Below are positions 1-32,947 of a stretch of 42,574 bases of DNA, piece after piece. Where the stretch lies: positions 1 to 42,574 of the IMG/VR virus record IMGVR_UViG_3300048038_000024; one strand, written 5' to 3'. This stretch comes from a virus. Within the stretch, counting starts at the first letter, position 1. Each line of letters opens with the position of its first letter. Made by a program: the position numbers and the translations under genes. The notes beneath the pieces were generated by a model. The model made no database searches and was not told the origin of the DNA. It saw only the letters and a program-made list of their open reading frames with translations.

Positions 1-115
1 GTAGAGCATCCCGATCCGCAACGGCGGACAGGCCTTATCGGGAGGGTCGAGTGGTTCGCGCAGAATAAGTTCTTAAAAAGTTTGTAAGGTTAGATAACGG
101 GCGCGTAGCTCAGGG
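1..115 (+). repeat. tRNA-derived tandem repeat, unit A
   Basis: This is the first of three head-to-tail units of about 115 bp. It begins at the D-loop motif GTAGAGCAT, carries a nested palindrome (TCCCGAT ... ATCGGGA enclosing CCGC-ACGGCGG) where a tRNA anticodon arm should be, and continues with GGGTCGAGTGGTTCGCGC. A spacer follows, and the unit ends in a perfect tRNA-Lys 5' half (GGGCGCGTAGCTCAGGG). It may extend beyond the left window edge. It is not a functional tRNA, because no 7-nt anticodon loop can be formed. Confidence 0.75.
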
Positions 116-230
116 GTAGAGCATCCCGACTTGTCGGGAGGGTCGAGTGGTTCGCGCAGAATAAGTTCTTAAAAAGTTTGTAAGGTTAGGTAACGGGCGC
201 GTAGCTCAGTGCCCGCCGTCGGCGGGTAAA
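116..230 (+). repeat. tRNA-derived tandem repeat, unit B
   Basis: This is the second unit. Its anticodon-arm position holds a shorter palindrome (TCCCGACTTGTCGGGA) without the nested insertion seen in units A and C. Its D-loop end carries an extra small palindrome, CCCGCCGTCGGCGGG, just before the next GTAGAGC. The rest is almost identical to units A and C, which implies recent tandem duplication with separate gain or loss of palindromes. Confidence 0.75.
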
Positions 231-346
231 GTAGAGCATCCCGATCCGCCACGGCGGACAGGCCTTATCGGGAGGGTCGAGTGGTTCGCGCAGAATAAGT
301 TCTTAAAAAGTTTGTAAGGTTTAGATAACGGGCGCGTAGCTCAGGG
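231..346 (+). repeat. tRNA-derived tandem repeat, unit C
   Basis: This is the third unit, nearly identical to unit A (CCGCC in place of CCGCA in the nested palindrome). Its 3' end supplies the 5' half of the intact tRNA-Lys: the acceptor and D-stem of the real tRNA at 330-346 are the last part of this unit. The unit therefore runs directly into the functional gene with no gap. Confidence 0.75.
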
Positions 347-401
347 GTAGAGCATTTGCCTTTTAAGCAAAGGGTCGGTGGTTCGAGCCCACCCGCGCTC
401 A
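330..401 (+). tRNA. tRNA-Lys(UUU)
   Basis: A full cloverleaf folds by eye: acceptor GGGCGCG/CGCGCTC with one G-U pair, D-stem GCTC/GAGC, anticodon stem TTTGC/GCAAA with loop CTTTTAA, and T-stem GGTGG/CCACC around TTCGAGC. The anticodon at 362-364 is TTT. The discriminator base is A at 401 and CCA is not encoded. It is preceded by three degenerate copies and followed by a rho-independent terminator. Confidence 0.9.
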
Positions 402-403
402 CT

Positions 404-438
404 TGGAAATCCCACTTTATAAGTGGGATTTCTTATTT
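404..438 (+). terminator. Rho-independent terminator after tRNA-Lys
   Basis: The inverted repeat GAAATCCCACTT / AAGTGGGATTTC with a 3-nt loop is followed by a T-rich tract directly after the tRNA. The same element, with one mismatch, recurs at 814-840 in the partial duplicate. Confidence 0.75.
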
Positions 439-464
439 TAAACAATAATTCTTTATGGGGACGT

Positions 465-722
465 ATGTCACAGCACTTCGTTTATATCATCAAAAATCCT
501 TCCGGCAAACATTACATTGGCGAAACGGAAAATCTTGAAAGACGCTTACACGAACACAATAAAGATAACGGTCATTTTACCGGCAATAATGGATCGTGGG
601 AGCTTGTAATTTATTCCACCTGTCAAAGTAAATCAGAAGCCGTACAACTTGAAAAGAAATTGAAGAACTTTAAAAACTCAAAATATGTGATTAAGTATCT
701 TTCTGAATTGCATGACGGGTAG
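465..722 (+). CDS. GIY-YIG (URI family) endonuclease
   Basis: A small single-domain GIY-YIG nuclease of 85 residues when started at the ATG at 465, which follows GGGGACGT. An in-frame ATG at 423 adds 14 unconserved residues and would overlap the terminator. The signature is FVYIIKNPSGKHYIGETENLERRLHEH, here seen as the Y-I-I and Y-I-G elements with a following Arg and His, and a C-terminal E-x-L-K-x-F-K helix. Family members nick or cut DNA with one metal ion; the role here is unknown. The gene sits 63 nt after tRNA-Lys. Its last two codons and its stop (GGG TAG) lie inside the next tRNA-derived repeat, so the gene is physically fused to the repeat array. A partial second copy begins at 873. 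Confidence 0.8.
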   Translation: MSQHFVYIIKNPSGKHYIGETENLERRLHEHNKDNGHFTGNNGSWELVIYSTCQSKSEAVQLEKKLKNFKNSKYVIKYLSELHDG

Positions 723-898
723 AGCATCCCGATCAGCCACGGCGAACAGGCTTTATCGGGAGGGTCGGTGGTTCTCCACGGGATGCTGCGCAGAGCCCAC
801 CCGCGCTCACTTGGAAATTCCACTTTATAAGTGGGATTTCTTATTTTAAACAATAATTCTTTATGGGGACGTATGTCACAACACTTCGTTTATATCAT
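717..898 (+). repeat. Partial second copy of tRNA/terminator/GIY-YIG unit
   Basis: From 717 the sequence again starts at the tRNA D-loop (GGGTAGAGCAT). It carries the nested TCCCGAT...ATCGGGA palindrome and continues into a T-arm and acceptor 3' half, with an extra 18 bp in the T-loop. A slightly degraded terminator and the first nine codons of the GIY-YIG gene follow. Compared with 345-490 it is a tandem duplicate with a unit length of about 372 bp. Similarity ends near 898. Confidence 0.8.
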
Positions 899-1255: not shown

Positions 1256-1297
1256 ATAAAAAAGCCCGGGAACGCCATATTTTCTGGCAATCCCGGG
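1256..1297 (-). terminator. Terminator of the rightmost phage operon
   Basis: On the minus strand a CCCGGGA...TCCCGGG stem, extended by GCCA/TGGC, is followed by CTTTTTT. It lies 17 nt beyond the stop of the adenine methylase gene and closes the minus-strand late transcript before the prophage end. Confidence 0.8.
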
Positions 1298-1313
1298 AGT
1301 GCACACAATTGCA

Positions 1314-2114
1314 CTAATAATTCATTATCACCAACTCCTCCGACTTCGGCTTGCTAAACCCCTCCCGGTTGGCTAATGTAGCCCCACAGGAGTGCTTAGC
1401 CCCGCTTTTCTCCACAATCCGGTACTTCCCATACAGCTCCCGGACTAACGGATGCTCGTAATAACTCAGCATGAACTTGCCCTGAATACCCTTAAGAAGC
1501 CGTGCTAACCGCTGGTGATCATCGATCGTGAAGTTCACATCCTTTGTTTTGTAGTAAAACTCCTTCTCAACATATGGAGGATCCAAATAGAAGAAAGTGT
1601 TTTTCCCGTCGTATTTCCGGATAATCCTTTCGAAATCCAAGCACTCGATCTGCACACGCTTAAGCCGGGCGTTGATCAGATCCAGCCTTTTCAGAAACGG
1701 CAGCCATTTGCCGCTTTCCACCTTTTTCGCTGTAACCGCGTAAGCCCAGCTATTTGTATTGCCACCTGAGAACGTCTGCATTCTCCGAATCGCGTAAAAC
1801 ATAGCCTTTTCCGTGTCGCTTAAGAATTTATCCTCCTGCAGGCGCTTCATTGCCTCAGCGTACATTTCCCGCGAGTGCAATGTCCACTGTGCACGGTGTT
1901 CAAACTCCGGGTAATTATCCCGGATAACCCGGAATAAATTAGTAAGGTCGCTGTTCAGATCGTTGTAAACCTCAAGAAAACTCGGTTGTTTTTTGAATAA
2001 TACCCAGCCGCCGCCGCCAAAAACCTCACAATAGGTTCTCGTAACGTAGTCAGTTTGGAAATTTGAGATAAGGAAGTTGGCAAGATAATTTTTGCCGCCG
2101 ATGTAGGGTACCAT
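1314..2114 (-). CDS. D12-class DNA adenine-N6 methyltransferase (right end)
   Basis: A Dam-like enzyme of 266 residues, normal for the class. It has the AdoMet-binding motif near the N-terminus (YIGGK at residues 4-8, then EVFGGGG at 30-36) and the catalytic DPPY at 178-181. It would transfer a methyl group from S-adenosylmethionine to adenine N6 in a short target that cannot be read from sequence. It is the last gene before the terminator at the right end, the place where Mu carries its DNA-modification gene mom, so protection of phage DNA against host restriction is the likely job (inference). Its start lies immediately after a hairpin whose 3' arm contains the likely ribosome-binding site. 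Its more GC-rich codon use matches the adjacent fibre gene more than the central tail genes. Confidence 0.85.
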   Translation of the reverse strand: MVPYIGGKNYLANFLISNFQTDYVTRTYCEVFGGGGWVLFKKQPSFLEVYNDLNSDLTNLFRVIRDNYPEFEHRAQWTLHSREMYAEAMKRLQEDKFLSDTEKAMFYAIRRMQTFSGGNTNSWAYAVTAKKVESGKWLPFLKRLDLINARLKRVQIECLDFERIIRKYDGKNTFFYLDPPYVEKEFYYKTKDVNFTIDDHQRLARLLKGIQGKFMLSYYEHPLVRELYGKYRIVEKSGAKHSCGATLANREGFSKPKSEELVIMNY

Positions 2115-2165
2115 AAAAAGCCTCTGAATTTAATAATTAATCATTATTTTTACTCAGAGGCTTTT
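2115..2165 (-). promoter_or_regulatory. Hairpin overlapping the methylase ribosome-binding site
   Basis: Arms GCCTCTGA and TCAGAGGC flank a 26-nt AT-rich loop. On the minus strand the 3' arm (TCAGAGGC) is followed by TTTTT and then directly by the ATG of the methylase at 2114. The element therefore looks like a terminator and also places the Shine-Dalgarno-like AGAGG inside a stem. The plus strand also has a short T run after it. Confidence 0.6.
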
Positions 2166-2199
2166 ATTGGTTTTCGATAGAGAATCTATAAAAGTCCCT

Positions 2200-2264
2200 G
2201 GAGCCGTTTCGTTGGAAAGCGTACCGGGGCTCTCGAAAGCCCCGGTGAAGCACGAAGCGGCTCC
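2200..2264. other. Long nested inverted repeat after the fibre gene
   Basis: The outer arms GGAGCCGTTTCGT and ACGAAGCGGCTCC (13 bp, one mismatch or G-U) enclose an inner 9-bp stem ACCGGGGCT/AGCCCCGGT. It lies 11 nt past the fibre stop codon on the minus strand. There is no T-tract, so a transcript 3'-end structure or processing site is more likely than a simple terminator. Confidence 0.6.
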
Positions 2265-2275
2265 GCTGTTTTAAC

Positions 2276-5200
2276 CTAACCCGATATCTTTGCGCTCGCA
2301 TAGCAGAATTGTACTGCCTTACTATCTCCGCTTCGAATGCTCAGTGTCACGCTCGTTTCATTTTTCGGCACATCCACTTCGAACATTACCTCGTGCCAAT
2401 GCAACGCGACATAATTCGTTAAAAAGACTGTATTCTGCGCATTTTTAATCAACCGTACATCTAATATGCCCAGATCATACTTATCCTCATCTGTCCAACT
2501 GCCCGTCATGTTGCCGCCCGCAGATGAAAATACACTCGGAAAATACCGACACCATATCTTAATCTGCAATTTTCGTTTTCGGTAAGCGTCTGCCGCGAAA
2601 GTAATTGTCTGTGAAAGATAATTAGCGGTTGTTAAAGGCACCATCTTCGTAATGCCAACCGGATACACGTTATCAGCCGGATCCGCAGGCGTCAGTGATC
2701 CCGTCACAGTCCAGCTGCTCAGGGAATCAACCTTCGAAACAGTCAGCAACTCCGCTGTGCTCAAATCCTGCAATAAGGGGATTTGCCTGTAATTTGCATC
2801 CTTTCGCTCTTCGCCAACCCACTCAGCATATACGGAATTCAGACTAAACCCGCCGTTTTTGTATACTAAAAATGATATCTTATCGTAGTTCATATATTTC
2901 CCAAGTGCCGTAACCTGCACAACGCCATTGCTGTTAGTCATGACATCCCAGACCTTCGTCTGTGCGTTCCGGGAATACACCGTTACCGAGGTATCGCTTA
3001 AGAATAATTTGAATTGTTTCATCCATTTGGCTGTAGTCGGCACAATCACTTCCACAAGGGCATAATCCGCGAATGCAATACTGCTACCCGCTCGAAGATC
3101 GAGATATTCATGTACGGATTGACTGCTATGATGCGGTGACAACGCGTCCCATACCGTCAAATCATCAAAATAGTAATTATCCGCGTCGAGCAGGGCATAT
3201 TGCGACACAAGCAACTCTTTGTATGCAATTGCCCGCTCCAGCTCAGTACTGAACATCAGATCGGCAACCGTGCTAACCGTGTAGCTTGTCCGCCTCCGGA
3301 AGATCTTTATCCCTTGCTTCGGTCGCGGAAGTGCGTCAATATATTTTTTGAACGAATCCCAAAATAATGTATTAACACGCAACCCGGGATGCGAGCTTGC
3401 CCAAAATGGCGCGTACCTCGTCGTGAACATATTCGCGGTTTTTTCAAGCACGTCAAAAAACAAACATCCCTCAGTCCTGGCTACATTACTGAGCGCGGTT
3501 TGAACAAGATCGGCGTAATTGGGAGATCCGCCCGCCACATTGTGATATTCTGAGCAGATGACCGGAATCATTCCTAACCCCTTAACTGCCTGAATCACTT
3601 TCTTTAGATCCAAAATGTAATTTTCAAGAAGATTAGTGCTATTAATAACGCTCTTGTTATAGTCATTCGCGAACGACATCAATACCGCATATGTGCCGTT
3701 TAGCTTGCTAATTCCATAATTCGGATGATAGGTAGGATTGTCAGATACTATTCTTGCCAATATATCAGCGTAGTCATCCCCGCTTTTGGACAAATTTTCA
3801 AAATTCCAATCCGAAAACATCGAGAGATAAGATATATACGCCTTGCCCTTCAACGTGTAGTAACTCTCTGAATAGCTGTCGCCGATAATTATTATCTTGT
3901 CGCTGTTCCCGATCGATATCCGTTTTTTATTGTAAACGCTAATTTCAATCGCTCTGCCAAATGGTTCAAACCATGTAGCCGCCGCCGCATTCTCAAACTG
4001 GAATGTATCAATGCCCGCCATATATCCCGATACGATAACAAATGCAACACCGCTCGGCACGGTGAATGAAGTAGTCCCGCCTGAACTGCCGCCGCTTACA
4101 ACATTTTTATTCACATCATAATAACAGACCTTACGCATATTGTATACGCCATCCCAGCCCGTGTATGTCTGTCCGACAATCACCGGGATAAAATCTGTAT
4201 AAAAATATGTTGATGAAGCATTCTTTCCGCCGCTCTCATCACAATAATAGTTCAATGTTGCTTTTGCAATATCGCATAAATTCTTCCCTGGTCGTACCCA
4301 GGCTTCTTTCTCAATAACAATACTGTTATTCTTTAGGGATAGTGTTTTATCGGCGTTCTGCTGCAACTCCGTGCCGCATATCTCTGCTTTTATTGCCGAT
4401 GCAGGTATGCTGTTAATATCATAACCCACAACGCCGAACTTATCATGATACGCCTCAAATGCGGTTGCCGTTGCCGATTGCTCAAATTGGAATGTTGCTA
4501 TATCGCTATTGTATGGCGTCACGATAACATAAGCCACTCCGGAGGGAACGGTAAATGAATATACTTCTGACCCACCGCCGGATACAACATTTTTATTCGC
4601 GTCGTAATAACAGGTCTTTTTCATCGGATGCGCTCCGCCGGTGCCGTAATAAACCAATCCGACTGTAACCGGGATAAAATCAGAATAGGAGAAAGCCGCG
4701 TTGGCATATTTCATGCCGTCAGTATCGCAATAATAACCGGTTGTCGCCAAAACTCCGTTAAATAAATTCTTTCCCTTTGAAGCGGAAAGAATCTTGTCGA
4801 TGGTTATTGGTTGTACTGCGGTTGAGGGGATTGAATTATCGTCGTGTCCGGGAATTCCGAACTTTTCATAATATGCGGCAAACGCGGTCGGAGCGGCTGC
4901 CTGCTCGAACTGGAATGAATTTAATTCGGTTTTATAAGTTGTAATAATTATGAATGCGGCTCCCGTTGGTACGGTAAACGTTGTCTGTTCCGTACTCCCG
5001 GCACCATCAAATCCGCCGGCAACAAAGCTTTTATTCGCGTCAAAGTAACACGAAAATCTAATTTTATGATTACTACCGTTCCCAGAATATTGCAATCCGG
5101 CAGTAACAGGAATATAGTCAGAGTATAAGTACGCAGTACTATCTCCAATAACGCCCAAACAACTCATATATTTATCAAGCGTAACCGCCGCTTTATTAAA

Positions 5201-15080: not shown

Positions 15081-16145
15081 CTATGCAATTGCATTCTCAA
15101 TGAAAAATCCAAGGTCGTTTGCGGTGATGAGTTCTTTCACGCATTCACCGGCTTTAACTATCTGGGCGCCGTTTAATCCAACTTTCTGATCAAACCACTG
15201 GTAAGCAGCTTTCGCACCAAACTGTGCGGTAAGAGCAAAGGTTACTCGGTTGGTTGTATCGGCAAGGAGGTCACGAGCGATAAGTGCAATATGTTTTCCC
15301 CATACGCGGCTTAAGGAAACGGTTTGTCCTTTTTTCGCGGTGTTAATAAATCCCTGACCAACGAGCAAGTCGTCAAGTTCAAAAAGATCCGCTACTTGTT
15401 TTCTTGAAACAATACCTTGTGTTCCGGCATTACCAAGTATCGCTGCCACAATCTGTGGATGACTGCGAAGTTTAGTCCAGGCTGCCTGTCCGATAACCAT
15501 TACGTTACCGCGCATAACCATTTTATCTAGTCCTGCCTGTATTACATCAATAGGATAGGATGTCGTCGGGTTATTAAATTGTGTGGTTGATGTATCGGCA
15601 AGGTTTATTTTATTGCCGGTAGCATAATTCGCTGCGGTAAATACAAGTCCTGCAGTACGTACTTCACGCGAAAGTGCGTTCAAATTTGCAATACCTTCAA
15701 CAGCTCTTCCTAATGGATCATAGCCTTGTGGAGCGTTATTCAAATCGTCAATCGGGACAACATCTTCCAATGCATAAAGTTCACACTGGTCGGTTACTTC
15801 GGTTGCGCTGAATTCTACTTGATTTGGTGATGATTTTCTGTCTACCTTATTATCAGGCAGGGTAAATCCCTCTGCGAGATTATATCTCAGGTATTTGAAT
15901 TGCTGCTGACCAACCGGTGTACGTGGTGCAACCTGGTCGGCAATTAAAGATGGATTCATGTATGCGATAACAATACCGCTTAATCTTGGGTCCAAAGGAA
16001 ACGGTGCCGGATCGGCAGGACGGAGAACGATAATATCGTTGAAATCATTATCAACGCTATTCGCGTTCAGGGGAGAATTAAAGAGAGCCGCAAGCGCAAC
16101 AATAAGCGCCATCAGCAATCCGTATGTTTTTTCTAAGAGTTTCAT
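15081..16145 (-). CDS. Major capsid protein with signal-like N-terminus
   Basis: 354 residues. The body matches a major capsid family found in Mu-like siphophages: LDPRLSGIVIAYMNPSLIAD near the start, QQQFKYLRY, the region YDPLGRAVEGIANL, MVIGQAAWTKLRSHPQIV, VWGKHIALIARD, and a final KELITANDLGFFIENAIA. Unusually, the first 30 residues (MKLLEKTYGLLMALIVALAA and onwards) look like a signal peptide: two lysines then a hydrophobic core. A good Shine-Dalgarno (TGAGGT) precedes this ATG, and no other Met occurs before the conserved core, so the extension appears genuine. It may be a cleaved scaffold-like segment or a membrane-targeting signal. Confidence 0.85.
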   Translation of the reverse strand: MKLLEKTYGLLMALIVALAALFNSPLNANSVDNDFNDIIVLRPADPAPFPLDPRLSGIVIAYMNPSLIADQVAPRTPVGQQQFKYLRYNLAEGFTLPDNKVDRKSSPNQVEFSATEVTDQCELYALEDVVPIDDLNNAPQGYDPLGRAVEGIANLNALSREVRTAGLVFTAANYATGNKINLADTSTTQFNNPTTSYPIDVIQAGLDKMVMRGNVMVIGQAAWTKLRSHPQIVAAILGNAGTQGIVSRKQVADLFELDDLLVGQGFINTAKKGQTVSLSRVWGKHIALIARDLLADTTNRVTFALTAQFGAKAAYQWFDQKVGLNGAQIVKAGECVKELITANDLGFFIENAIA

Positions 16146-18326: not shown

Positions 18327-18836
18327 ATGAAACCCTTTTCTCCTGATACAATTGCCAAAATAAAAGCCTTATACGTCAATGAGGGTAAGTCGGCACTTGA
18401 TATTTCTAAAAAATGTCACGGTCAGCCGTCTTCGCAAACAATATCCGGATGGGTTAAAAAATATGATTGGAATAAATTGCGGGATGAATATCTCAACGAA
18501 AAATATGAAGAGCTTTCACCGCAAAACATTGCGCAAAAAATTCTTCAAAAAATTCATCACCTGCTCAATCAGGATGTAAAGAAGTTTACAACAAAGGATG
18601 CGGATGCTCTTGCCAAACTCCGCGTCAGTATGGAAAAGCTCACCGATAAAAAGTATCAGATTCCCATGATGTATGAAGTCTTGACTCAGTTCATTGAGTT
18701 CCTTACCGGCAATTATCCCCAGTACGTTAATGACGAATTTCTCAACGTAGTCAGGCATTTCAAGAATGAACTCAAATCGAATCTTGAGGATAATACCCTG
18801 ATTCACATTAAAAAGCGGGAGCCTAAAAATGGGTAA
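18327..18836 (+). CDS. Terminase small subunit (DUF1804/Mu gp27-like)
   Basis: 169 residues. The N-terminus is a helix-turn-helix (SPDTIAKIKALYVNEGKSAL...SQTISGWVKKYDWNKLRDEY) as in Mu-type small terminases, followed by helical oligomerisation sequence (IAQKILQKIHHLLNQDVKKF). It overlaps the large terminase start by 8 nt. It would recognise phage DNA ends for headful packaging. Confidence 0.75.
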   Translation: MKPFSPDTIAKIKALYVNEGKSALDISKKCHGQPSSQTISGWVKKYDWNKLRDEYLNEKYEELSPQNIAQKILQKIHHLLNQDVKKFTTKDADALAKLRVSMEKLTDKKYQIPMMYEVLTQFIEFLTGNYPQYVNDEFLNVVRHFKNELKSNLEDNTLIHIKKREPKNG

Positions 18837-20346
18837 TATTTACCGCGAAGAAGATGAGCAGTTTGAGCAATTTCTCAGGCGGGCTGTAACCCGCTGCTCC
18901 GAAACCGAACTTACCGAAGAAAATCGGAAAGAACGCCGTGCCCGGTGTGATAGCGATGAGTTCGAGTTCTGCCGCGAATATTACCCGGAGATATTTTCCG
19001 GTCCCTGGAACGAACTCCATCATCATATTAAATCTCTTGAATCAGGCGAACATGGTATCGGTGGATGCCGTTTCTTTGGTAAAACTACCTATGGCATATT
19101 TGGTAAAATAGTCAAACGCATAGCCCTTGGTGGCATCGGTCTCATAGGACTTGCTCTCCGTGATGAGGATGACGCGAAAGAACGCACATACCTCATTTAC
19201 CGAAAGATCAAGAAAAACAAAAAGCTTTGCTATGATTATCACATCAATTTCCAGCAGGAGAAAAAAGGATTTTACATCATCAACAACAAATCTTTCGTAA
19301 GTCTCGGTATGAGAGAGGGATTGCGTAACTGGTTTGATGATAATATGAAACGCTTTGAACTGATTGTCTGTGACGATTTATTTAACCGGCAAACGGTTTC
19401 ATCCGAAGTGGATAATGAAAAGGTTTATAATTTCGTTACCTCTGAGTGTTCGGGACAGCTTAATCCTGATGGTTTACTCTTATGGTTTTTTAACCTCATT
19501 ACGGAAAAATCTCCCGGCTCAAGGTTTGTTGAAGATCGTCCTGAATCTTGCTTTACACTTCCCGCGTTAAATGATAAGGATGAAACAAACTGGCCCGGCT
19601 CGTTCTGGACAACTGAGCAGCTGCTACTTAAAAAAGCAAAAATCCCACTTGAGGTTTGGCTTGGTGACTGGATGAATCGACCCGTACAAATAGGTGAATT
19701 CCTCAAAACTGAGTGGCAAACATTTGTCAATATCAATACTCTGAATATAATTGCCACTATCGGTGCCATGGATCCATCCTACGGTAAATCTCCATCCGCG
19801 TGTCTGAAAGGCGGCGTTATATTAGGTTTAACGGATAAAGGGAAATCCGTACTGCTTGATGTGTACGCACGAAAAGAGGATTATTGTTTTGTTTTTGATT
19901 GGTTTAACCGATGCCGTCAGTTGTATCCGGCATTCAAGGCAATTCTCTGGGAGGATGATTTTGCCCAGTGGACTACCGCTATGCCATATTATAATGATTG
20001 GGTTAAACAGACAGGTTTACGGTTGCCGATTATCAGGTTTTTATCCAGCTCGCTTAAAACCGAGTTTTACGGTTCTGATAAGATAGGTAGAATAATGAAT
20101 CTTGTTTATCCTTATCAAACGGCAAATATCATCATAAATGAGGATATAAAAGCCTCTCCGGATTTTAAGGTTCATAATACACAATACATTTCATTTGGTC
20201 GCGCTAAAGAAAAACTCGATGTGCTTGATGCCGAAGCCTCCGCGTTTATCATGCTCCCCGGTTATGTGGGTAATCAAACTATCAAAAATTTGAAAGAACG
20301 GAAATACGCGCGCTCCCGTAATTCAAATTGGCTTCATAACAGATAA
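18829..20346 (+). CDS. Terminase large subunit (Mu gp28-like)
   Basis: 505 residues, the usual size. The ATPase half has a Walker-A-like CRFFGKTTYG (about residues 79-88) and Walker B LIVCDDLF (about 179-186). The RNase-H-like nuclease half has a first acidic strand IGAMDPSYGKSPSACLKGG and a second, AILWEDDFAQ. It pumps replicated phage DNA into proheads and cuts when full. It is followed by the portal gene after 14 nt. Confidence 0.85.
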   Translation: MGNIYREEDEQFEQFLRRAVTRCSETELTEENRKERRARCDSDEFEFCREYYPEIFSGPWNELHHHIKSLESGEHGIGGCRFFGKTTYGIFGKIVKRIALGGIGLIGLALRDEDDAKERTYLIYRKIKKNKKLCYDYHINFQQEKKGFYIINNKSFVSLGMREGLRNWFDDNMKRFELIVCDDLFNRQTVSSEVDNEKVYNFVTSECSGQLNPDGLLLWFFNLITEKSPGSRFVEDRPESCFTLPALNDKDETNWPGSFWTTEQLLLKKAKIPLEVWLGDWMNRPVQIGEFLKTEWQTFVNINTLNIIATIGAMDPSYGKSPSACLKGGVILGLTDKGKSVLLDVYARKEDYCFVFDWFNRCRQLYPAFKAILWEDDFAQWTTAMPYYNDWVKQTGLRLPIIRFLSSSLKTEFYGSDKIGRIMNLVYPYQTANIIINEDIKASPDFKVHNTQYISFGRAKEKLDVLDAEASAFIMLPGYVGNQTIKNLKERKYARSRNSNWLHNR

Positions 20347-20360
20347 TAAAGGATTTTACG

Positions 20361-21506
20361 ATGTTACAGGTAAATAAAAATTACGGCATAGTTGGAGTTG
20401 CTTTTACTCCTGATTTTTATAAACGTGCTTTTCTGCAGTGGCAGCTCGGTATTTACCGCGATGTATACGCGCTTATTGACCGCGCTGAATGTGACGGATT
20501 TATCGCGGGATGCCTTACGGCGAGACATTCGGGCTATAAACGGAAATATCAGATATCGGCAGTAAGTGACGATGCCACGGATCAGAAAACAGCGCAATTT
20601 GTTAATGATACTTTTGAAAATCTCAATATGCGCGTTCTGTTCGAGAATATCATTGAGGCAAAACTTAAAAAGTATTCGGTTATTGCTCTCAACTGGGAAA
20701 CTGTCGATAATCAGCAGGTTGTCACTTCATTTAAGTTTTACGATCAAAAGTATTTCCGTATCGATCCAAAGGATGAAATACTTAAGATCGATATGGGATC
20801 GAATCTTATTCCAATTGAACCCGATAGTGCTCTGATCATTGAATATCATAAAAAAATGATTATGCTTACTATTCTTAAAGCATTCATCCGTAAGGAATTT
20901 GGAGAAGAGTCCTGGTCATCATTTCTTGAGATATTCGGTGAGCCGTTTATCTGGGGAGAATATCCTCCGGGACTGGGAGATAAAGAACGGGAAAACCTTG
21001 AACAGGGAATTCAGCAGCTTGGAGCATCCGCACGTGCTGTCGTTCCACAGGGTTCAAAAGTAAATATTACCGAAGCCACACGGAGCACGGCCGATCATAA
21101 AGATTATAAGGAAGATGTTAAAACGGAAATCTCCCTTGCTCTGCTCGGTCATGAAAAAGCTGCAGGAACTCAGCAAAAAGGACTGCAAGTGGGAGGAAAT
21201 AACGATGCGTTCCGTGTTACCCAGCATATTGCCATAGACGATATGGATTTTATCGAGTCGGCAATTCAACCTTTAATCAGGATGCTCGTAAATCGTAACT
21301 TCCCGAATATCCGGAAATATCCAAAACTCGTGTTTGATAAATCCGATGCCGCAGACCCAAAAGATAAACTTGCCGCGGCGCAACTTGCTTTTAACGCAGG
21401 AGCGGAAATTGACGCATCATTTTTTGATGATTTCGGAGTGCCGATTTTAAATAGAGAACAACCATTAAAAGTTACTCCATTATTCCCCGGAGATCAGGTT
21501 TTATGA
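20361..21506 (+). CDS. Portal protein (DUF935/Mu gp29-like)
   Basis: 381 residues with landmarks of Mu-type portals: ALIDRAECDGFIAGCLTARH early, KKYSVIALNWE, FGEPFIWGEYPPG in the centre, and SKVNITEATRSTADHKD followed by ISLALLGHEKAAGTQQKG. It forms the dodecameric DNA channel at the head vertex. It is slightly shorter than typical members at the C-terminus. The stop overlaps the start of a 53-residue frame by 4 nt (ATGA). Confidence 0.85.
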   Translation: MLQVNKNYGIVGVAFTPDFYKRAFLQWQLGIYRDVYALIDRAECDGFIAGCLTARHSGYKRKYQISAVSDDATDQKTAQFVNDTFENLNMRVLFENIIEAKLKKYSVIALNWETVDNQQVVTSFKFYDQKYFRIDPKDEILKIDMGSNLIPIEPDSALIIEYHKKMIMLTILKAFIRKEFGEESWSSFLEIFGEPFIWGEYPPGLGDKERENLEQGIQQLGASARAVVPQGSKVNITEATRSTADHKDYKEDVKTEISLALLGHEKAAGTQQKGLQVGGNNDAFRVTQHIAIDDMDFIESAIQPLIRMLVNRNFPNIRKYPKLVFDKSDAADPKDKLAAAQLAFNAGAEIDASFFDDFGVPILNREQPLKVTPLFPGDQVL

Positions 21507-24543: not shown

Positions 24544-25062
24544 TTAAAGCCACCTTTCTTTGGGTTCGGTATATTGAATACCAGTTATTGTATAAAAGTC
24601 TTTTTCAAGTTTTACGGGAATAATCTTTTTATTCTTTATCAGATTTCCGTCTTCGCATCTGAATCCTCTCCGGAGAAGTTCACGCATGATGTTTTTGCAA
24701 TACGTATCAGACCCGGTTCTTATAAGCAGAATCAGTCCGAAATTATTTTCATTCGCAATGAACAGATCGAGTTTTATTCCTTCAGGCAAATTGATTTGTG
24801 TGTATTTCCCCAGTGCATTGCCTTTAACGCGCTCCATAGCATTCACGTATTCAACGAACTCCGGGAGAGGTTGTAACTGGTGGATGGTTTCAAATAAACC
24901 GTCTGACGTTACCGCTGTCTGCTTTGGAGCGCATATGATTTCAATATCCTTAACTTCCGGCTTTTGTCTACGGAGACTTCCACCTATCTTTATTTGCGTA
25001 CACATCGGCTTCAAATCTTTGTAATACCTCAAAGCAATATTCAGGGCTAATTCGTGCTGCAT
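24544..25062 (-). CDS. Stand-alone DNA polymerase X-like nucleotidyltransferase
   Basis: 172 residues covering only palm and thumb-like parts of family X polymerases. Residues 27-32 GGSLRR and the following KDIEII (Asp39, Glu41) form the first catalytic motif. GIKLDLFIA gives the third carboxylate, Asp99, and ENNFGLILLIRTGSDTYCKN matches the pol beta substrate-binding segment. The usual DxD is DxE here. No 8-kDa lyase or helix-hairpin-helix domain is present. It could fill short gaps or act as a terminal transferase. It overlaps the C5 methylase by one base. Confidence 0.75.
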   Translation of the reverse strand: MQHELALNIALRYYKDLKPMCTQIKIGGSLRRQKPEVKDIEIICAPKQTAVTSDGLFETIHQLQPLPEFVEYVNAMERVKGNALGKYTQINLPEGIKLDLFIANENNFGLILLIRTGSDTYCKNIMRELLRRGFRCEDGNLIKNKKIIPVKLEKDFYTITGIQYTEPKERWL

Positions 25063-26867
25063 TATGCCCGTTCCTTTTTCTGTTCGGCTGTAATTACCAT
25101 ATAAAGTGCCTCCACCATTCGTTGTGCGACAATTGGTACTACTGCGTTCCCGATAAATTTTTTCTTATCAGCTTGACTTCCGAGCAATATATAATCATCA
25201 TCGAAGCCCTGAATTTTTAATAATTCCGGTACTTTCAGCATACGCATGGAAATATCAATAATGCCGTAAGCCGCCATGAACAACTTGATTCTCTTGACAA
25301 ATTCAGAGTCGCTTGCATATATCTCAATTGCCAAATCTCCGGACTCCATCGAAATTAAATACGGAGGCCGTTTATCCATTCTGGCTATGAGCGTAAAGGC
25401 AGGATTATCAACTGAACTTCCTTTACTTGCATATTGAGGATTCATCAAATAATGATATTTCCTGTTGGCAAGTATTGTTCTTGCGGGTTCATCAATAACG
25501 TTTCCGGTATTCCTGAATGACGTATCCATTATCCAGGGCTGAATATTCAGATTGACAAGAGCGGATTGATTTTCCGTTGTTATGGTATAGTGTGAGTCTT
25601 CGATATTCCGGGGATTTGATTTTAAGTATGAGATTAAAAATTCGGTGTTAACTATATTCAATTTTGGAACAGTCGTTATTGCTCCCGCAGGTGACTCAAT
25701 ACTCTGATTTTGTTTGCCCTGTCCAAATTGCAAGTCAAGAAAATGAGAACTTACAATTCCCATTCTATCTTTAGTCGTTAAAGTAGCACAAACTTCTTCA
25801 GGTGAAATTATATTCTCACCGGTACCGTAGTATTTTATAAGATAATTCGGTTGAATAAGACTCATACCAACACGGCAAGTTAATGTAGCAGCGGGATCAT
25901 CGATGCTACTGCCCTTGTTTACGTCTGTATTATTACAACTGCTGTAATATTTAGCGAGAAAAGCAGGTTGAATTAAGCCAATTCTGTTCTGTGTGGTAAT
26001 GGTAATAGCCGGATCATTAATACTATTTCCGTTATTGATACCGGTAATGGCGTTATTGCCCATCCATTTAGTAAGATATGCCTCACTTCCATTGGCGATA
26101 AACTTAACCAAACCGGCATAAATGCGTTTATAAGTGTTTTCCGATAGAGGTTTATCTCTGAAAATACTACTTCCTTTATCCTGGAAATCAAGACATTCCT
26201 TGACTGGTTTCCATTTTTTTAAGCCGGACATATCTGTTTTTTTTGTATGGGTAGGTTCAGGATAAATAATAGGCATACCCGGCTTTGCAAAAATTAAGAA
26301 TAATCGGATGCGTGAAGTATGTGCTCCATAATCAGCGGCATTTAAAAGCTTCTCCTGGAATACGTATCCGAGAGCTTTTACTTTTTTAACCCATTGAAGA
26401 TATAAACGACCTTTGTCCTTGCTAACCGGCTTGCCGTTTTCGTCAAGGTCTCCCCACATACGAAACTCTCGTACATTCTCAATTAATAAATAATCCGGCG
26501 AAAGGTGTTTTAAATATCTGAATAGTTCATTGGCTAATGTCCTTGAATCGCGGTCCCGTGGTTTACCGCCTTTGGCATTTGAAAAATTGGTACACTCAAG
26601 CGAAGCCCACAAACAACTGATGGCATTCTCTGAAAAACTGGGCAGATGGTTTACATCAAAAGTTCTGATATCTTCATTAAAATGAATTGTCTCTTTGTGG
26701 TTAGCAGCATGACTTTGTATCGCAATAGGATCATGATTGATACAAGCGATAACCCTGGCGATTTTTTCACCGTTAAATACGGCGTTTTCAATGCCTGATG
26801 TTGAGCCACCGGCTCCGCAGAACAGGTCAATCACTTCAATCGATGTAAATAAATTTTTATTCGGCAT
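25062..26867 (-). CDS. C5 cytosine DNA methyltransferase with seven internal repeats
   Basis: 601 residues. Catalytic motifs: I (VIDLFCGAGGSTSG, 12-25), IV (SLECTNFS, nucleophile Cys92; Pro before Cys is replaced by Glu), VI (IENV, 129-132), VIII (TSRIRLF, 184-190), IX (VPELLKIQGF, 546-555) and X (FIGNAVVPIVAQRM). Between VIII and IX lie about seven degenerate units of 30-39 residues beginning near 263, 302, 341, 375, 409, 441 and 477, each with aromatic/KYY, a G-S-I-D-D-P-A element and T-I-T-T. This region is where target recognition resides. It would protect phage DNA against restriction; one enzyme with several recognition units is conceivable. Confidence 0.85.
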   Translation of the reverse strand: MPNKNLFTSIEVIDLFCGAGGSTSGIENAVFNGEKIARVIACINHDPIAIQSHAANHKETIHFNEDIRTFDVNHLPSFSENAISCLWASLECTNFSNAKGGKPRDRDSRTLANELFRYLKHLSPDYLLIENVREFRMWGDLDENGKPVSKDKGRLYLQWVKKVKALGYVFQEKLLNAADYGAHTSRIRLFLIFAKPGMPIIYPEPTHTKKTDMSGLKKWKPVKECLDFQDKGSSIFRDKPLSENTYKRIYAGLVKFIANGSEAYLTKWMGNNAITGINNGNSINDPAITITTQNRIGLIQPAFLAKYYSSCNNTDVNKGSSIDDPAATLTCRVGMSLIQPNYLIKYYGTGENIISPEEVCATLTTKDRMGIVSSHFLDLQFGQGKQNQSIESPAGAITTVPKLNIVNTEFLISYLKSNPRNIEDSHYTITTENQSALVNLNIQPWIMDTSFRNTGNVIDEPARTILANRKYHYLMNPQYASKGSSVDNPAFTLIARMDKRPPYLISMESGDLAIEIYASDSEFVKRIKLFMAAYGIIDISMRMLKVPELLKIQGFDDDYILLGSQADKKKFIGNAVVPIVAQRMVEALYMVITAEQKKERA

Positions 26868-26914: not shown

Positions 26915-27751
26915 TTAAGGTCGTGATTGACTAAATAATCCATATTCAAATGGGTCATAATTAGTCCAGACTACCTCCTGAGATGAACTATGAAATAATC
27001 CGGTACCTTTTTTTCTTGCCGTAAACTTTTTGAATTGAGTAAGATGGTCGTTATATAGCTCATTTTCATAACCGGAAATTGCAATGCGCCCTTGTATACT
27101 TTTTACTATAGTCAATAACTCGACATGGTCGTTAATGCTCATTTCATGTTCGTATTCATTCTTGTTACAACGAACTTCATGTAAATAGGGCGGTTCGGCA
27201 TAAAAAAGAGTACGTGGTGAATCAAATTTTTTAATTACTCGGCGATAATCCATATTCAAAATCTGGACTGTTTTCATTCTTTCAATAACAGCAATTAGAT
27301 TTGGTAATTTAGAAAGCCATCTGGATACAGCTTCAGAAATACTTGCCCTGGTGTTATTAGTACTCATTTTCCAACCGGTTTGTCTTGACATCGTTCCATT
27401 AAAACTCATATTTACGACAACAAAGAAATTGCGTGCTCTTTCAACTGCATCTCCAACATTTATGTTATGATAACAATTAAAATATTCTTCCCTGGCATAG
27501 GGAGTTAAATAGATTTTTTTAATTAATTCATCGCCATTGTCTCGTAATACTTCAAAAAAATTGATTACGGAATTATTTACATCATTGAATGTCTCAATTT
27601 TGGAAGGTTTTTTATTCCATGTAATAATGCCGCTTCCTCCAAATAATTCAACAAAGGAGTAGCTTTCCGGCAGGAGTGAAAGAACAAAATCAAGATGATT
27701 GAATTTTCCACCAAAGTAGTTAAAAGGAATAATTTTTTTATTTGTTTGCAT
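26915..27751 (-). CDS. D12-class adenine methyltransferase with EPPY motif
   Basis: 278 residues. The AdoMet site is clear: NYFGGKFNH (11-19) and FVELFGGSG (33-41), followed by ETFNDVN. The catalytic motif IV reads AEPPYLH, with Glu186 in place of the Asp of DPPY; the codon is GAA, read directly from the sequence. The target-domain region carries SFNGTMSRQTGW. The substitution may lower or abolish transfer, or the protein may serve as a DNA-binding decoy. It is clearly diverged from the DPPY enzyme at 1314-2114. It lies in the modification cluster next to the C5 methylase. Confidence 0.75.
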   Translation of the reverse strand: MQTNKKIIPFNYFGGKFNHLDFVLSLLPESYSFVELFGGSGIITWNKKPSKIETFNDVNNSVINFFEVLRDNGDELIKKIYLTPYAREEYFNCYHNINVGDAVERARNFFVVVNMSFNGTMSRQTGWKMSTNNTRASISEAVSRWLSKLPNLIAVIERMKTVQILNMDYRRVIKKFDSPRTLFYAEPPYLHEVRCNKNEYEHEMSINDHVELLTIVKSIQGRIAISGYENELYNDHLTQFKKFTARKKGTGLFHSSSQEVVWTNYDPFEYGLFSQSRP

Positions 27752-28990: not shown

Positions 28991-29935
28991 TTATGCTGAT
29001 CTCTTTTTTTGTTCGGTTGTCTGGGCAAGGCGGTTGATAGCTGCCTGTACCCGCGGAGTAAACTTATTTGTAACGTTAAGAGTCGAATGTACCGTTGCAA
29101 CTCCGAGATTTGCTTCTTGGGCAACCATGCGAACGGATAAGTTATACGCCTGCATTTGTTCACCTATGGTTGGTTTAACAACGTCTTCATCTATAACGCT
29201 CTTTCCCGCTTTGCGGGCTTCGGTCATTTTCTTTTCGACATAATCGACTATCTGCAGGGGCACTTTGCAAATGATGGCAATAGTCTTTCCGGCTTCCGGA
29301 GTTATTGATTTGCCAAAGACCTCCTTAATGTAATTAACGCGTTCACCAAAGGTCATCCAACCATTTCGCTCATTCATTTCAATGATGGTAGAACGCCATA
29401 AAGCTTCTTTTCTCGTTTCAACGTTTGTGATGAGTGAGGGGTGACCGATCAGGACAACCGAGAATAAATTCTTACTGCCTTTATAGGTCATTTCCCGAAG
29501 TTCTTTTATTGCTCTGAAAATAGAGTTATGCAGGCGGTGAGCTTCTTCAATAACCACGACCACTGTTTTCTTATTGTTGACAACAGTTTCTCCCAGCACA
29601 CGGCGCAATTGCATGGTACGGGCTTCCAGGTCACGCTTGGGTGATTCATCTGAAAGGGAATAAATTATGGCATTCATTATCGAGGCAATGTTAACTCTCT
29701 CTTTGAAGAGATTGCTGACATAAATAAACTCGCAAATCGATTCCTGGTTATTGGCGCAAAGTTCGAATAAGGAACTTTTCATTGTCCCAACGGGACCCGC
29801 TAAAACGACCATCTTTTTATTGAGGAAACCGTCTTCGATATCATCGCAAAAGCTTTCGCAAGCTTTGGAATAATAATTACCCATCTTTGGAAGCCCGAAG
29901 TGACGGAGTAACCGGCTATCTATTTCTCTGTTCAT
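28991..29935 (-). CDS. MuB-like AAA+ transposition ATPase
   Basis: 314 residues. Walker A is GPVGTMKS (47-54) and Walker B VVVVIEEAH (125-133), where Glu replaces the usual Asp; VVLIGHPSL (160-168) is the sensor region. It fits the ExeA/MuB family that binds target DNA, polymerises and activates the transposase. The C-terminal 58 residues contain a LacI-like helix-turn-helix (VRMVAQEANLGVATVHSTLN) followed by PRVQAAINRLA. In Mu B the helix-turn-helix is N-terminal, so the order is reversed here. It overlaps the DUF3164-like gene by 4 nt. Confidence 0.8.
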   Translation of the reverse strand: MNREIDSRLLRHFGLPKMGNYYSKACESFCDDIEDGFLNKKMVVLAGPVGTMKSSLFELCANNQESICEFIYVSNLFKERVNIASIMNAIIYSLSDESPKRDLEARTMQLRRVLGETVVNNKKTVVVVIEEAHRLHNSIFRAIKELREMTYKGSKNLFSVVLIGHPSLITNVETRKEALWRSTIIEMNERNGWMTFGERVNYIKEVFGKSITPEAGKTIAIICKVPLQIVDYVEKKMTEARKAGKSVIDEDVVKPTIGEQMQAYNLSVRMVAQEANLGVATVHSTLNVTNKFTPRVQAAINRLAQTTEQKKRSA

Positions 29936-31348: not shown

Positions 31349-32947
31349 CTATAGAACGTTAGTTTTTCTTGAAATTTCAAGCCAAATCATATCGATATCG
31401 GCTTTCTTTAAACTCAACTCCAGTACCTCGTCAAATACTTCCGCATAATCGGCGTAGGTCTCTTTGCGGTTATTTTGATAAATGATTTCTCCGATATATT
31501 TTTTAGCGGCGTATAGGTCGGCAAAAACATAATCAATACCCTCAGAAACTTCCGCAAATTTTGATGTCGCTTCGGCTCTTACAACCGATGGTTTTAAATA
31601 GGCGACATTATCGGTGACACTTACTGATTCAAATTCTCTGTCCGGCTTTTTTGAATCCGAATTTATTTGCGCTTCCAGACTTTGTTTATATGTCTGTTTT
31701 TCACGATGACTGAAATCACCCAGGTCAACATATCCGCGTACCGCTTTTAATTGGAATGGCTTTGAATATTCGTCAACAAGTTCACCGATAGCCTCACTAC
31801 GCGCGTTAATGCTGACATTGATAAACTTTCCTATATATTTTGAATTGCCTACATCATATTTCTGATTATTAACCGTAACTAATCCGGCATTATCAACGCG
31901 GCGTTTGTATTGTTTAGCAAGGATACTGCTCATATCGATAGTTATTTCCCGCTGTTCATGAAGCTGCAATCCTGATTTATACACGTGTATTTTACTCTCA
32001 TGCTTGATCGGATGATCTTTCATTGCCCAGCGGATAGCAAACTGAGAAAGTTCATAATTATAATCAGCAAGATTAATGGTTGCGCCGGAGCCTAATCGCA
32101 TAGCAAGTGGAAGTTCAAATCTGCGCCATAAAGCTTTCCACTGGCTTTCCTGTTTTTGTATACCGCGTTTTTTCCAGGGACGGACAAGTTCTCTCGTTAT
32201 TTTAAGATTCTCAAGCAGCTCTAAAAAAGCACCACTCTTACCCAAGGAACCGTTATCAAGTTTTAATATGCCCGGTAAAAATCTGATGGGATTTTCGTCT
32301 TCGTCTCTTCCATATACCCAGTTAACAAACTCGACACCGGCTAGAACACTTTCACCACCGGCAATAAATGCACGGCTGATATTCAATCTGCTGTATGAAT
32401 CGGTTATACCGCATAGCCAGGTGCGAAGCTGATGCTCGTTCTCTTTATAATCAAGAACGTGCCCGGATACTTTTAATACATAATCTTCGCTTGCAGCATC
32501 AAATGTTTTGACTTGGAAATATTCACTGCGGGAAAAATCAAGCTGATGCATCTGATTGGAATAAGCTGCCTCAACCCGGACAACCCTTTCCTTGGCTCTG
32601 AATCCTGATTCCCGAAGTCGACGGTTTACAGTTGATACCCGTAATCCCTCTGCTTCAGAAACCCCGGAATCAATAAGAATTTGTATGCATTCTTCTGTAC
32701 ATAATTCACGACCTGCCTGTCCCATCTGCATACTTTGCAGCTTTAATTTCCCTATTTCGTCAATAATATGCTGAGGTATCACTTGTTCCCGTTTTAATTT
32801 CTTTACGGGCCCAAATTCATCTCGCATTTTCCTGTAAATAGTATCGGTTGATACTCCGAACATATCCGCGTAGCGCCGCATGATATTATCACGGCTGCCA
32901 CGTAGAGCGGCACTCAGTTCAAACTTTATTTCAGCAACATTAATCAT
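31349..32947 (-). CDS. DDE transposase (MuA-like)
   Basis: 532 residues. The N-terminal part carries helix-turn-helix-like DNA-binding segments (YADMFGVSTDTIYRKMRDEFG at 26-46, less one residue at a time). The RNase-H-fold core has Asp137 (MHQLDFSR), Asp231 (GILKLDNGSLGK) and Glu267 (QKQESQWKAL), with a D-35-E spacing; Asp183 lies in the CGITDSYSR strand. A beta-barrel-like region (VDNAGLVTVNNQKYDVG) and a charged C-terminus follow, the latter probably contacting the ATPase partner. It cuts the phage ends and joins them to target DNA for replicative transposition. Its start overlaps the GemA-like gene by 8 nt. Confidence 0.85.
   Translation of the reverse strand: MINVAEIKFELSAALRGSRDNIMRRYADMFGVSTDTIYRKMRDEFGPVKKLKREQVIPQHIIDEIGKLKLQSMQMGQAGRELCTEECIQILIDSGVSEAEGLRVSTVNRRLRESGFRAKERVVRVEAAYSNQMHQLDFSRSEYFQVKTFDAASEDYVLKVSGHVLDYKENEHQLRTWLCGITDSYSRLNISRAFIAGGESVLAGVEFVNWVYGRDEDENPIRFLPGILKLDNGSLGKSGAFLELLENLKITRELVRPWKKRGIQKQESQWKALWRRFELPLAMRLGSGATINLADYNYELSQFAIRWAMKDHPIKHESKIHVYKSGLQLHEQREITIDMSSILAKQYKRRVDNAGLVTVNNQKYDVGNSKYIGKFINVSINARSEAIGELVDEYSKPFQLKAVRGYVDLGDFSHREKQTYKQSLEAQINSDSKKPDREFESVSVTDNVAYLKPSVVRAEATSKFAEVSEGIDYVFADLYAAKKYIGEIIYQNNRKETYADYAEVFDEVLELSLKKADIDMIWLEISRKTNVL

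Follow-up and report, generated by a model that had tools for sequence, protein, structure and literature searches.

A GIY-YIG nuclease gene in a tandem tRNA-Lys array and related putative homing-like cassettes at bacterial tRNA genes

The window analysed here is the whole 42,574-bp stretch of IMGVR_UViG_3300048038_000024, a linear provirus record. From position 1 to approximately 898, it consists of host-like DNA that carries a tRNA-Lys array at the left end of the record, while a Mu-like provirus and right-hand region, recognized from PHROGs matches and open reading frames (899-42574), lies outside the cassette. All features of the array are on the plus strand. ARAGORN calls just one intact tRNA-Lys in it, with anticodon TTT (330-402; Rfam RF00005, 69.7 bits), and this gene is preceded by three pseudo-tRNA-Lys units. 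In the first, which is end-truncated (1-98; GTAGAGCA), a hairpin at 9-43 (TCCCGATCCGCAACGGCGGACAGGCCTTATCGGGA) stands in place of the anticodon arm, and the T-arm is broken after GGTTCG and followed by a leader that is also found before the intact tRNA-Lys. The second unit (99-194; 96 bp) comprises tRNA nucleotides 1-26, a minimal hairpin at 124-139 (TCCCGACTTGTCGGGA), a truncated T-arm, and the leader. The third (195-329) has a D-loop hairpin insert at 210-230 (TGCCCGCCGTCGGCGGGTAAA), an anticodon-arm hairpin at 239-273, and the leader at its end. Behind the intact tRNA there is a terminator-like hairpin, seen as an inverted repeat (406-432), and then a stand-alone GIY-YIG nuclease gene encoding 85 amino acids (465-722). 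This gene runs into a 3′ tRNA-Lys fragment (717-810) that starts in the D-loop and retains an intact 3′ acceptor strand; in this fragment, a hairpin at 727-761 replaces the anticodon arm, and an 18-nt insert at 775-792 separates TTC from GA in the T-loop. The last segment (814-898) holds a second copy of the terminator hairpin (814-840) and the start of a second GIY-YIG gene, of which only the codons from 873 to the cut at 898 are present. Positions 385-490 and 793-898 form a 106-bp direct repeat (98%) that includes the tRNA 3′ end, the terminator hairpin, and the start of the GIY-YIG gene. Every pseudo-tRNA of the window has, in place of its anticodon arm, a hairpin whose ends are TCCCGA/TCGGGA. 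Weak Rfam matches in the window to rnk_pseudo, BSnc119, and BSnc120 fell below gathering scores and were dismissed as chance.

The motif GTAGAGC occurs at 1, 116, 231, 347, and 719, which confirms the spacings of 115, 115, 116, and 372 bp on which the initial annotation was based. It had read the first of these as 115-bp units. Although the spacings are correct, Tandem Repeats Finder detects a true repeat of 96 bp (34-209; 97% matches), to which hairpins are added: one upstream unit has an anticodon hairpin that is about 19 nt longer, and another has the 21-nt hairpin in its D-loop. Thus, the equal spacings are partly a coincidence of a 96-bp repeat with hairpins of differing size. Similarly, all units had been described as joining just before GGTAGAGC. 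This join is meaningful at 717-719, where the GIY-YIG reading frame meets the tRNA fragment, but elsewhere the point at which the units of a tandem array are taken to begin is arbitrary. At that point, the nuclease gene does take its stop codon from the next tRNA fragment, as had been noticed, since it ends in the TAG of GGGTAGAGC in the D-loop. The same type of stop is found in other Lys loci (twice in L004, and in L071 and L096) and is absent in L094 and L108.

The encoded domain belongs to the GIY-YIG superfamily (PF01541, E=2.3e-18), and Y7, Y17, G19, R27, H31, N32, and E63 are invariant in 14 GIY-YIG proteins; judged by its sequence, the 85-aa protein of the window keeps the predicted catalytic-type residues intact. 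In general, the proteins of these cassettes are of about 70-95 aa and single-domain, being filled by the GIY-YIG domain, and no separate C-terminal DNA-binding domain was found in them. By sequence, they are nearest to UPF0213 and to the structure-specific SLX1 enzymes. Their resemblance to I-TevI is weak, with I-TevI-type profile matches falling below the NCBIfam cut-off. No close relative of the window protein was found in viral contigs, and the plasmid and phage collections contained distant GIY-YIG relatives only. The three closest genes in the genome collection (L004-L006) come from Ignavibacteria assemblies, and all of them lie downstream of a tRNA-Lys(TTT). Two of these three loci also have a 5′-truncated tRNA-Lys with a hairpin for its anticodon arm, whereas in the third the contig ends inside the gene; L004 contains two units in tandem. 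When 391 genomes of the class were searched with a narrow pattern for the Lys fragment, only 3 matched, which is explained by variation in both the hairpin sequence and the tRNA.

The arrangement of the window is one case of a much wider one. A survey of 61 genomes from a single family and 99 from across the phylum, most of them draft assemblies, gave 159 non-duplicate GIY-YIG loci. An intact tRNA is found within 500 bp of the nuclease gene in 129 of the 159 (median about 45 bp), although such counts are not fully independent, as the genomes are related and from one phylum. The tRNAs are of many isotypes and, in all 129 loci, on the same strand as the nuclease gene. The remaining 30 loci are mostly near contig ends, with tRNA fragments, or in other associations (RNase P RNA, tmRNA, or palindromes). 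By contrast, for Y1 transposases taken as a control from the same 61 genomes, a tRNA lies within 500 bp in 0 of 30 loci and within 1.5 kb in one. There is likewise no tRNA near four GIY-YIG relatives from outside the phylum (Azospirillum, Acetoanaerobium, Sinorhizobium, and a Rhizobium phage). Within the cassettes, which have units of 315-410 bp, the GIY-YIG gene is alone, with no site-specific integrase. Rfam matches revealed no group I intron in the window region or in the 20 loci scanned, and the tRNA is intact outside the cassette.

Beyond adjacency, the search of related genomes showed that a partial copy of the same tRNA recurs on the far side of the small GIY-YIG gene in 119 of the 129 loci, so that an intact tRNA at one end is matched by a partial copy at the other, as in tRNA islands. 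Thus, an association of GIY-YIG gene, tRNA, and partial copy is widespread in Bacteroidota-type bacteria. Two orders are observed: tRNA, GIY-YIG gene, and 3′ fragment in type A, which includes the window, and 5′ fragment, GIY-YIG gene, and tRNA in type B. When the tRNA of the same genome was ranked against tRNAs with the same anticodon from other genomes, the fragment best matched the former in 86 of 106 testable loci, where 13 were expected. The position of the break is typical of each isotype. The D-loop break proposed from the window holds, at the level of the D-arm, for Lys, Val, and Ala, but the break is in the anticodon region in Asp and elsewhere in Asn, Pro, and Ser; for instance, it is at nucleotide 28 in most type-B Pro loci and in the anticodon loop in type-B Ser(TGA). 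A more general rule, that all breaks are in loops, was rejected because 48 of 119 break positions are in stems (40% against a background of 56%), partly owing to the limited resolution of the short matches used to place the break points, which can misplace them by several bases. As a set, breaks are only moderately enriched outside stems. The inserts within the fragments are palindromic (n=110), with a mean stem of 6.1 compared with 3.3 after shuffling, and 80 of the 110 reach p<=0.05. One recurrent site of clean insertion, seen in many isotypes, is TTC^GA or TTC^AA in the T-loop; another is GGATA^GA in the D-loop of tRNA-Arg.

These hairpins also exist apart from the nuclease. The pattern TCCCGA-N2-14-TCGGGA occurs 1,325 times in the 61 genomes, whereas the reversed pattern occurs 106 times, and its abundance (that of the former pattern) tracks the number of GIY-YIG genes (Spearman 0.56, p=2e-6; -0.16 for the reversed-pattern control), with 1-7 hairpins in the five genomes that have no GIY-YIG match. 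In genome G185, about three quarters of 53 hairpins are no more than approximately 200 bp away from a tRNA gene or a tRNA fragment (L023 and L062 among these loci). Short palindromes accompany the cassette and are also dispersed without the gene, as in REP/RAYT systems. Furthermore, five loci of this genome (L229, L234, L240, L241, and L244) have several hairpin-bearing partial tRNAs and no GIY-YIG gene, and positions 1-329 of the window are a hairpin-fragment array of the same kind. A nuclease thus need not be inside each unit, and the arrays of G185 are possibly non-autonomous. These observations are also compatible with simple slippage or tandem duplication of tRNA loci with the GIY-YIG gene hitch-hiking, as tandem arrays, decayed copies, and nuclease-less hairpin arrays all exist. 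Nevertheless, chance duplication would not be expected to produce a pattern that recurs at many isotypes throughout a phylum and combines strict strand agreement with isotype clades and palindromic inserts at fixed sites, and the 30 control loci give no hint that fragment arrays are equally frequent with unrelated genes. We consider ordinary slippage extremely improbable.

The relationship with particular tRNAs can also be followed in the nuclease phylogeny. On a tree of 139 GIY-YIG proteins, whose 74-column alignment is too short to settle deep forks, the isotype label changes 39 times, compared with a mean of 103 after shuffling, and none of 200 shuffles was as low. Sizeable groups with members from different genomes are seen for each of Asp, Asn, Ser, Pro, Met, and Cys. 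This fidelity could in part stem from old insertions that were inherited vertically and then lost. Presence is patchy within a genus. Genome G182 has five units of 315 bp at a tRNA-Asp, and its array is missing from the orthologous tRNA-Asp, called by a common upstream flank of about 1 kb, at four informative sites in genomes of the same genus; a fifth site, in L182, is cut short at the tRNA by the end of its contig. Similarly, insertions of G408 at tRNA-Ser(CGA) and tRNA-Ser(GGA) are absent from the syntenic loci in G492, G182, G491, and G348. A comparison of L068 with L203 shows, separately, that the block of these two tRNA-Ser genes is apparently inverted between G408 and G182 relative to common flanks.

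The number of GIY-YIG copies varies from 0 to 22 per genome, and tandem copies, with units of the length given above, are found in L004, L047, L052, L053, L056, L057, L060, L061, and L141. The last of these has eight copies at 1289-4052 with a period of about 364 bp, placed after a tRNA-Met-like fragment; ARAGORN calls no tRNA in this interval. Tandem copies differ mainly at synonymous sites (in L004, dN is 0.061 and dS 0.50), and a dN well below dS implies that the copies are under purifying selection. Comparisons of dN/dS between loci were discarded owing to saturation. Selection of this type, together with same-strand placement beside tRNAs, might suggest that the nuclease is kept for the host, with the arrays regulating or raising tRNA dosage or protecting tRNA genes, and SegB provides a precedent for tRNA dosage (PMC13096335). 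However, such a domesticated function is hard to reconcile with patchiness within a genus, with the range of copy numbers, and with fragments that lack half of the tRNA and are plugged by hairpins, and we regard it as very unlikely.

Taken together, tRNA adjacency with strand agreement, partial tRNA copies, isotype clades, empty orthologous sites, and recurrent tandem units support the proposal of the initial annotation that a tRNA-targeted and nuclease-linked process of amplification or homing, rather than random duplication, is at work, although its interpretation as a whole is only partly supported. The cassettes colonize tRNA genes and, rarely, other structured-RNA genes, and the tRNA itself stays intact. 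Judging from sequence comparison, they are probably isotype-specific, homing-like GIY-YIG elements that would spread by break repair with the tRNA pieces as homology arms. We infer that the adjoining tRNA is the target from the placement of a free-standing nuclease gene beside it in so many loci. The nuclease would cut an uninvaded tRNA gene, and repair of the break would copy the cassette in; the homology would come from tRNA sequence on both sides, with the intact gene on one and the fragment on the other, so that tRNA function would be restored. Hairpins in the loops of the fragment may then prevent it from acting as a tRNA or from being cut again. Break repair between repeats could expand and contract the tandem arrays, and fragment-only arrays such as that at 1-329 would be decayed or nuclease-less derivatives. 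Such a homing model would account for the identity of fragments to the local tRNA, for the survival of an intact tRNA, for the fidelity of clades to isotypes, and for the patchy distribution and growth of the arrays. As an intact tRNA is evidently tolerated beside the nuclease, the cut site must either be protected or be unlike the bare tRNA. By contrast, the nuclease-less arrays and the fact that the proteins are single-domain and look closer to UPF0213 and SLX1 than to I-TevI count against homing.

A few cassettes are located outside tRNA genes. In L107 (1501-1701, minus strand) and L110 (1501-1701), a GIY-YIG reading frame is inside the RNase P RNA gene, in the P3 region, bounded by inverted repeats of 19-23 bp and flanked by the complementary strands of P1 (GGAAAGCC/GGCTTTCC and GGAAAGTC/GACTTTCC). 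In L163, two GIY-YIG units of about 388 bp follow a tmRNA gene (1132-2016 in coding orientation), with conserved non-coding repeats between them. The reading frame of L054 (1252-1473) is between inverted repeats CACCCCGTCAAATA and TATTTGACGGGGTAAA and apparently splits a small protein-coding gene. In addition, a distinct GIY-YIG subfamily is beside dispersed palindromes of the TGTCATTCCGAACTTGTTTCGGAATCT type and not beside tRNAs (L051, L066, L067, L089, L090, L137, L138, and L167). Rfam detected no RNA in the 13 loci that lack a tRNA, RNase P RNA, or tmRNA, several of which are flanked by palindromes instead. By analogy, this subfamily may be related to its repeats as RAYT is to REP. Such a palindrome-linked minority is not explained by the homology-arm model and counts against it.

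The main rival is a hairpin-directed mobile element, in which an SLX1-like, structure-specific GIY-YIG enzyme would act on DNA hairpins and place genes or palindromes at their loops. In this case, tRNA genes, RNase P RNA genes, and REP-like palindromes would all be hit as foldback sequences, and the system would be a GIY-YIG counterpart of RAYT/REP. It is consistent with SLX1 structure-specific endonucleases being the nearest characterized relatives with solved structures, with the RNase P RNA insertions in two genomes, where the reading frame is between inverted repeats and P1 pairs across it, with the palindrome-flanked subfamily, with precise insertion at tRNA loop sites such as TTC^GA of the T-loop, and with the clustering of hairpins at tRNA loci. 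Nevertheless, the fidelity of clades to isotypes suggests recognition of sequence over that of hairpins in general, and break positions show just a moderate preference for loops. Overall, we hold hairpin direction to be rather unlikely.

Several known systems share part of these features. SegB of phages T4/T6, a GIY-YIG homing endonuclease with a free-standing gene close to phage tRNA genes, causes tandem amplification of tRNA-Tyr together with segB in a process that depends on recombination (PMC13096335). A GIY-YIG enzyme can thus amplify tRNA-containing units by recombination, and the likeness to the cassettes extends both to a GIY-YIG gene tied to tRNA genes of many isotypes and to tandem amplification of tRNA and nuclease gene by cutting and recombination (PMC13096335). 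However, SegB is phage-borne, whereas the cassette proteins are chromosomal and single-domain, and neither hairpin-plugged tRNA halves nor isotype-specific clades are reported for it in the available text (PMC13096335). The best match of the cassette proteins in sequence and domain length is UPF0213 (PDB 1zg2 and 1ywl), whose PDB entries are named hypothetical and record no tRNA link. SLX1, the nearest characterized family, is larger. I-TevI-type enzymes of group I introns have a common catalytic domain, but their profile matches are weak, and the cassette has neither an intron nor a separate DNA-binding domain. We know of no settled function for small GIY-YIG proteins such as UPF0213.

Genomic islands that integrate at tRNA genes use tyrosine integrases, keep the tRNA intact, and leave a partial tRNA copy at their far end. 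The cassettes resemble them in their insertion at tRNA genes and in having the intact tRNA with a partial copy at the far end. Unlike the islands, they have no integrase, are of about 0.3-0.4 kb, duplicate 5′ as well as 3′ halves, have fragments plugged by hairpins, and form tandem arrays that contain the nuclease. RAYT transposases, in turn, are encoded by a small gene tied to REP palindromes that are also dispersed without it. The cassettes share this combination of a small enzyme gene and short, dispersed palindromes, but their enzyme is GIY-YIG and not a Y1 (HUH) transposase, and they are tied chiefly to tRNA genes, while the Y1 family of the same genomes has no tRNA link. No published account of the GIY-YIG/tRNA-fragment arrangement was found in the open-access literature, and although GIY-YIG nucleases, tRNA targeting, and palindromes are known singly, their combination appears to be new.

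The cassette has the look of selfish DNA of a kind not yet described, one that resides in tRNA genes without breaking them. On balance, the evidence tilts slightly towards a new class of mobile elements, in which stand-alone GIY-YIG nucleases would recognize tRNA and other structured-RNA genes one isotype at a time. On insertion, they would bring along a copy of half the gene, so that the RNA still functions, and the half that is displaced would be blocked by hairpins. Such elements would also give rise to hairpin arrays without a nuclease, and tRNA loci across the phylum would be their standing habitat. The strand-locked and isotype-specific link to tRNAs gives this branch of GIY-YIG proteins a testable role as enzymes of tRNA-gene homing or mobility and predicts a way for selfish DNA to inhabit essential RNA genes without disabling them. 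It may also explain arrays of tRNA fragments and palindromes that annotation has missed, and it offers many natural enzyme-target pairs, with one clade per tRNA isotype, for the study of target choice by compact nucleases.

Finally, the position of the array at the left edge of a provirus could suggest that it is a scar left at an attachment site by the Mu-like prophage or by some other element that integrates at tRNA genes. PHROGs matches assign to this phage a major head protein (15081-16145), a terminase (18829-20346), a portal (20361-21506), a transposition ATPase (28991-29935), and a transposase (31349-32947). The phage genes examined in the window include those for a Mu-type transposase and a transposition ATPase but none for an integrase that targets tRNA genes, which argues against such a scar, as does the same cassette at tRNA-Lys in contigs L004-L006 without any prophage; this origin is hardly credible. 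The left junction of the provirus adjoins the GIY-YIG copy that ends at 898, the remainder of which is absent from the rest of the record. The provirus also has a D12-type adenine methylase gene that is confirmed by Pfam (1314-2114) and, by resemblance only, a second D12-type adenine methylase gene (26915-27751) and a DNA cytosine-methylase-like gene (25062-26867).
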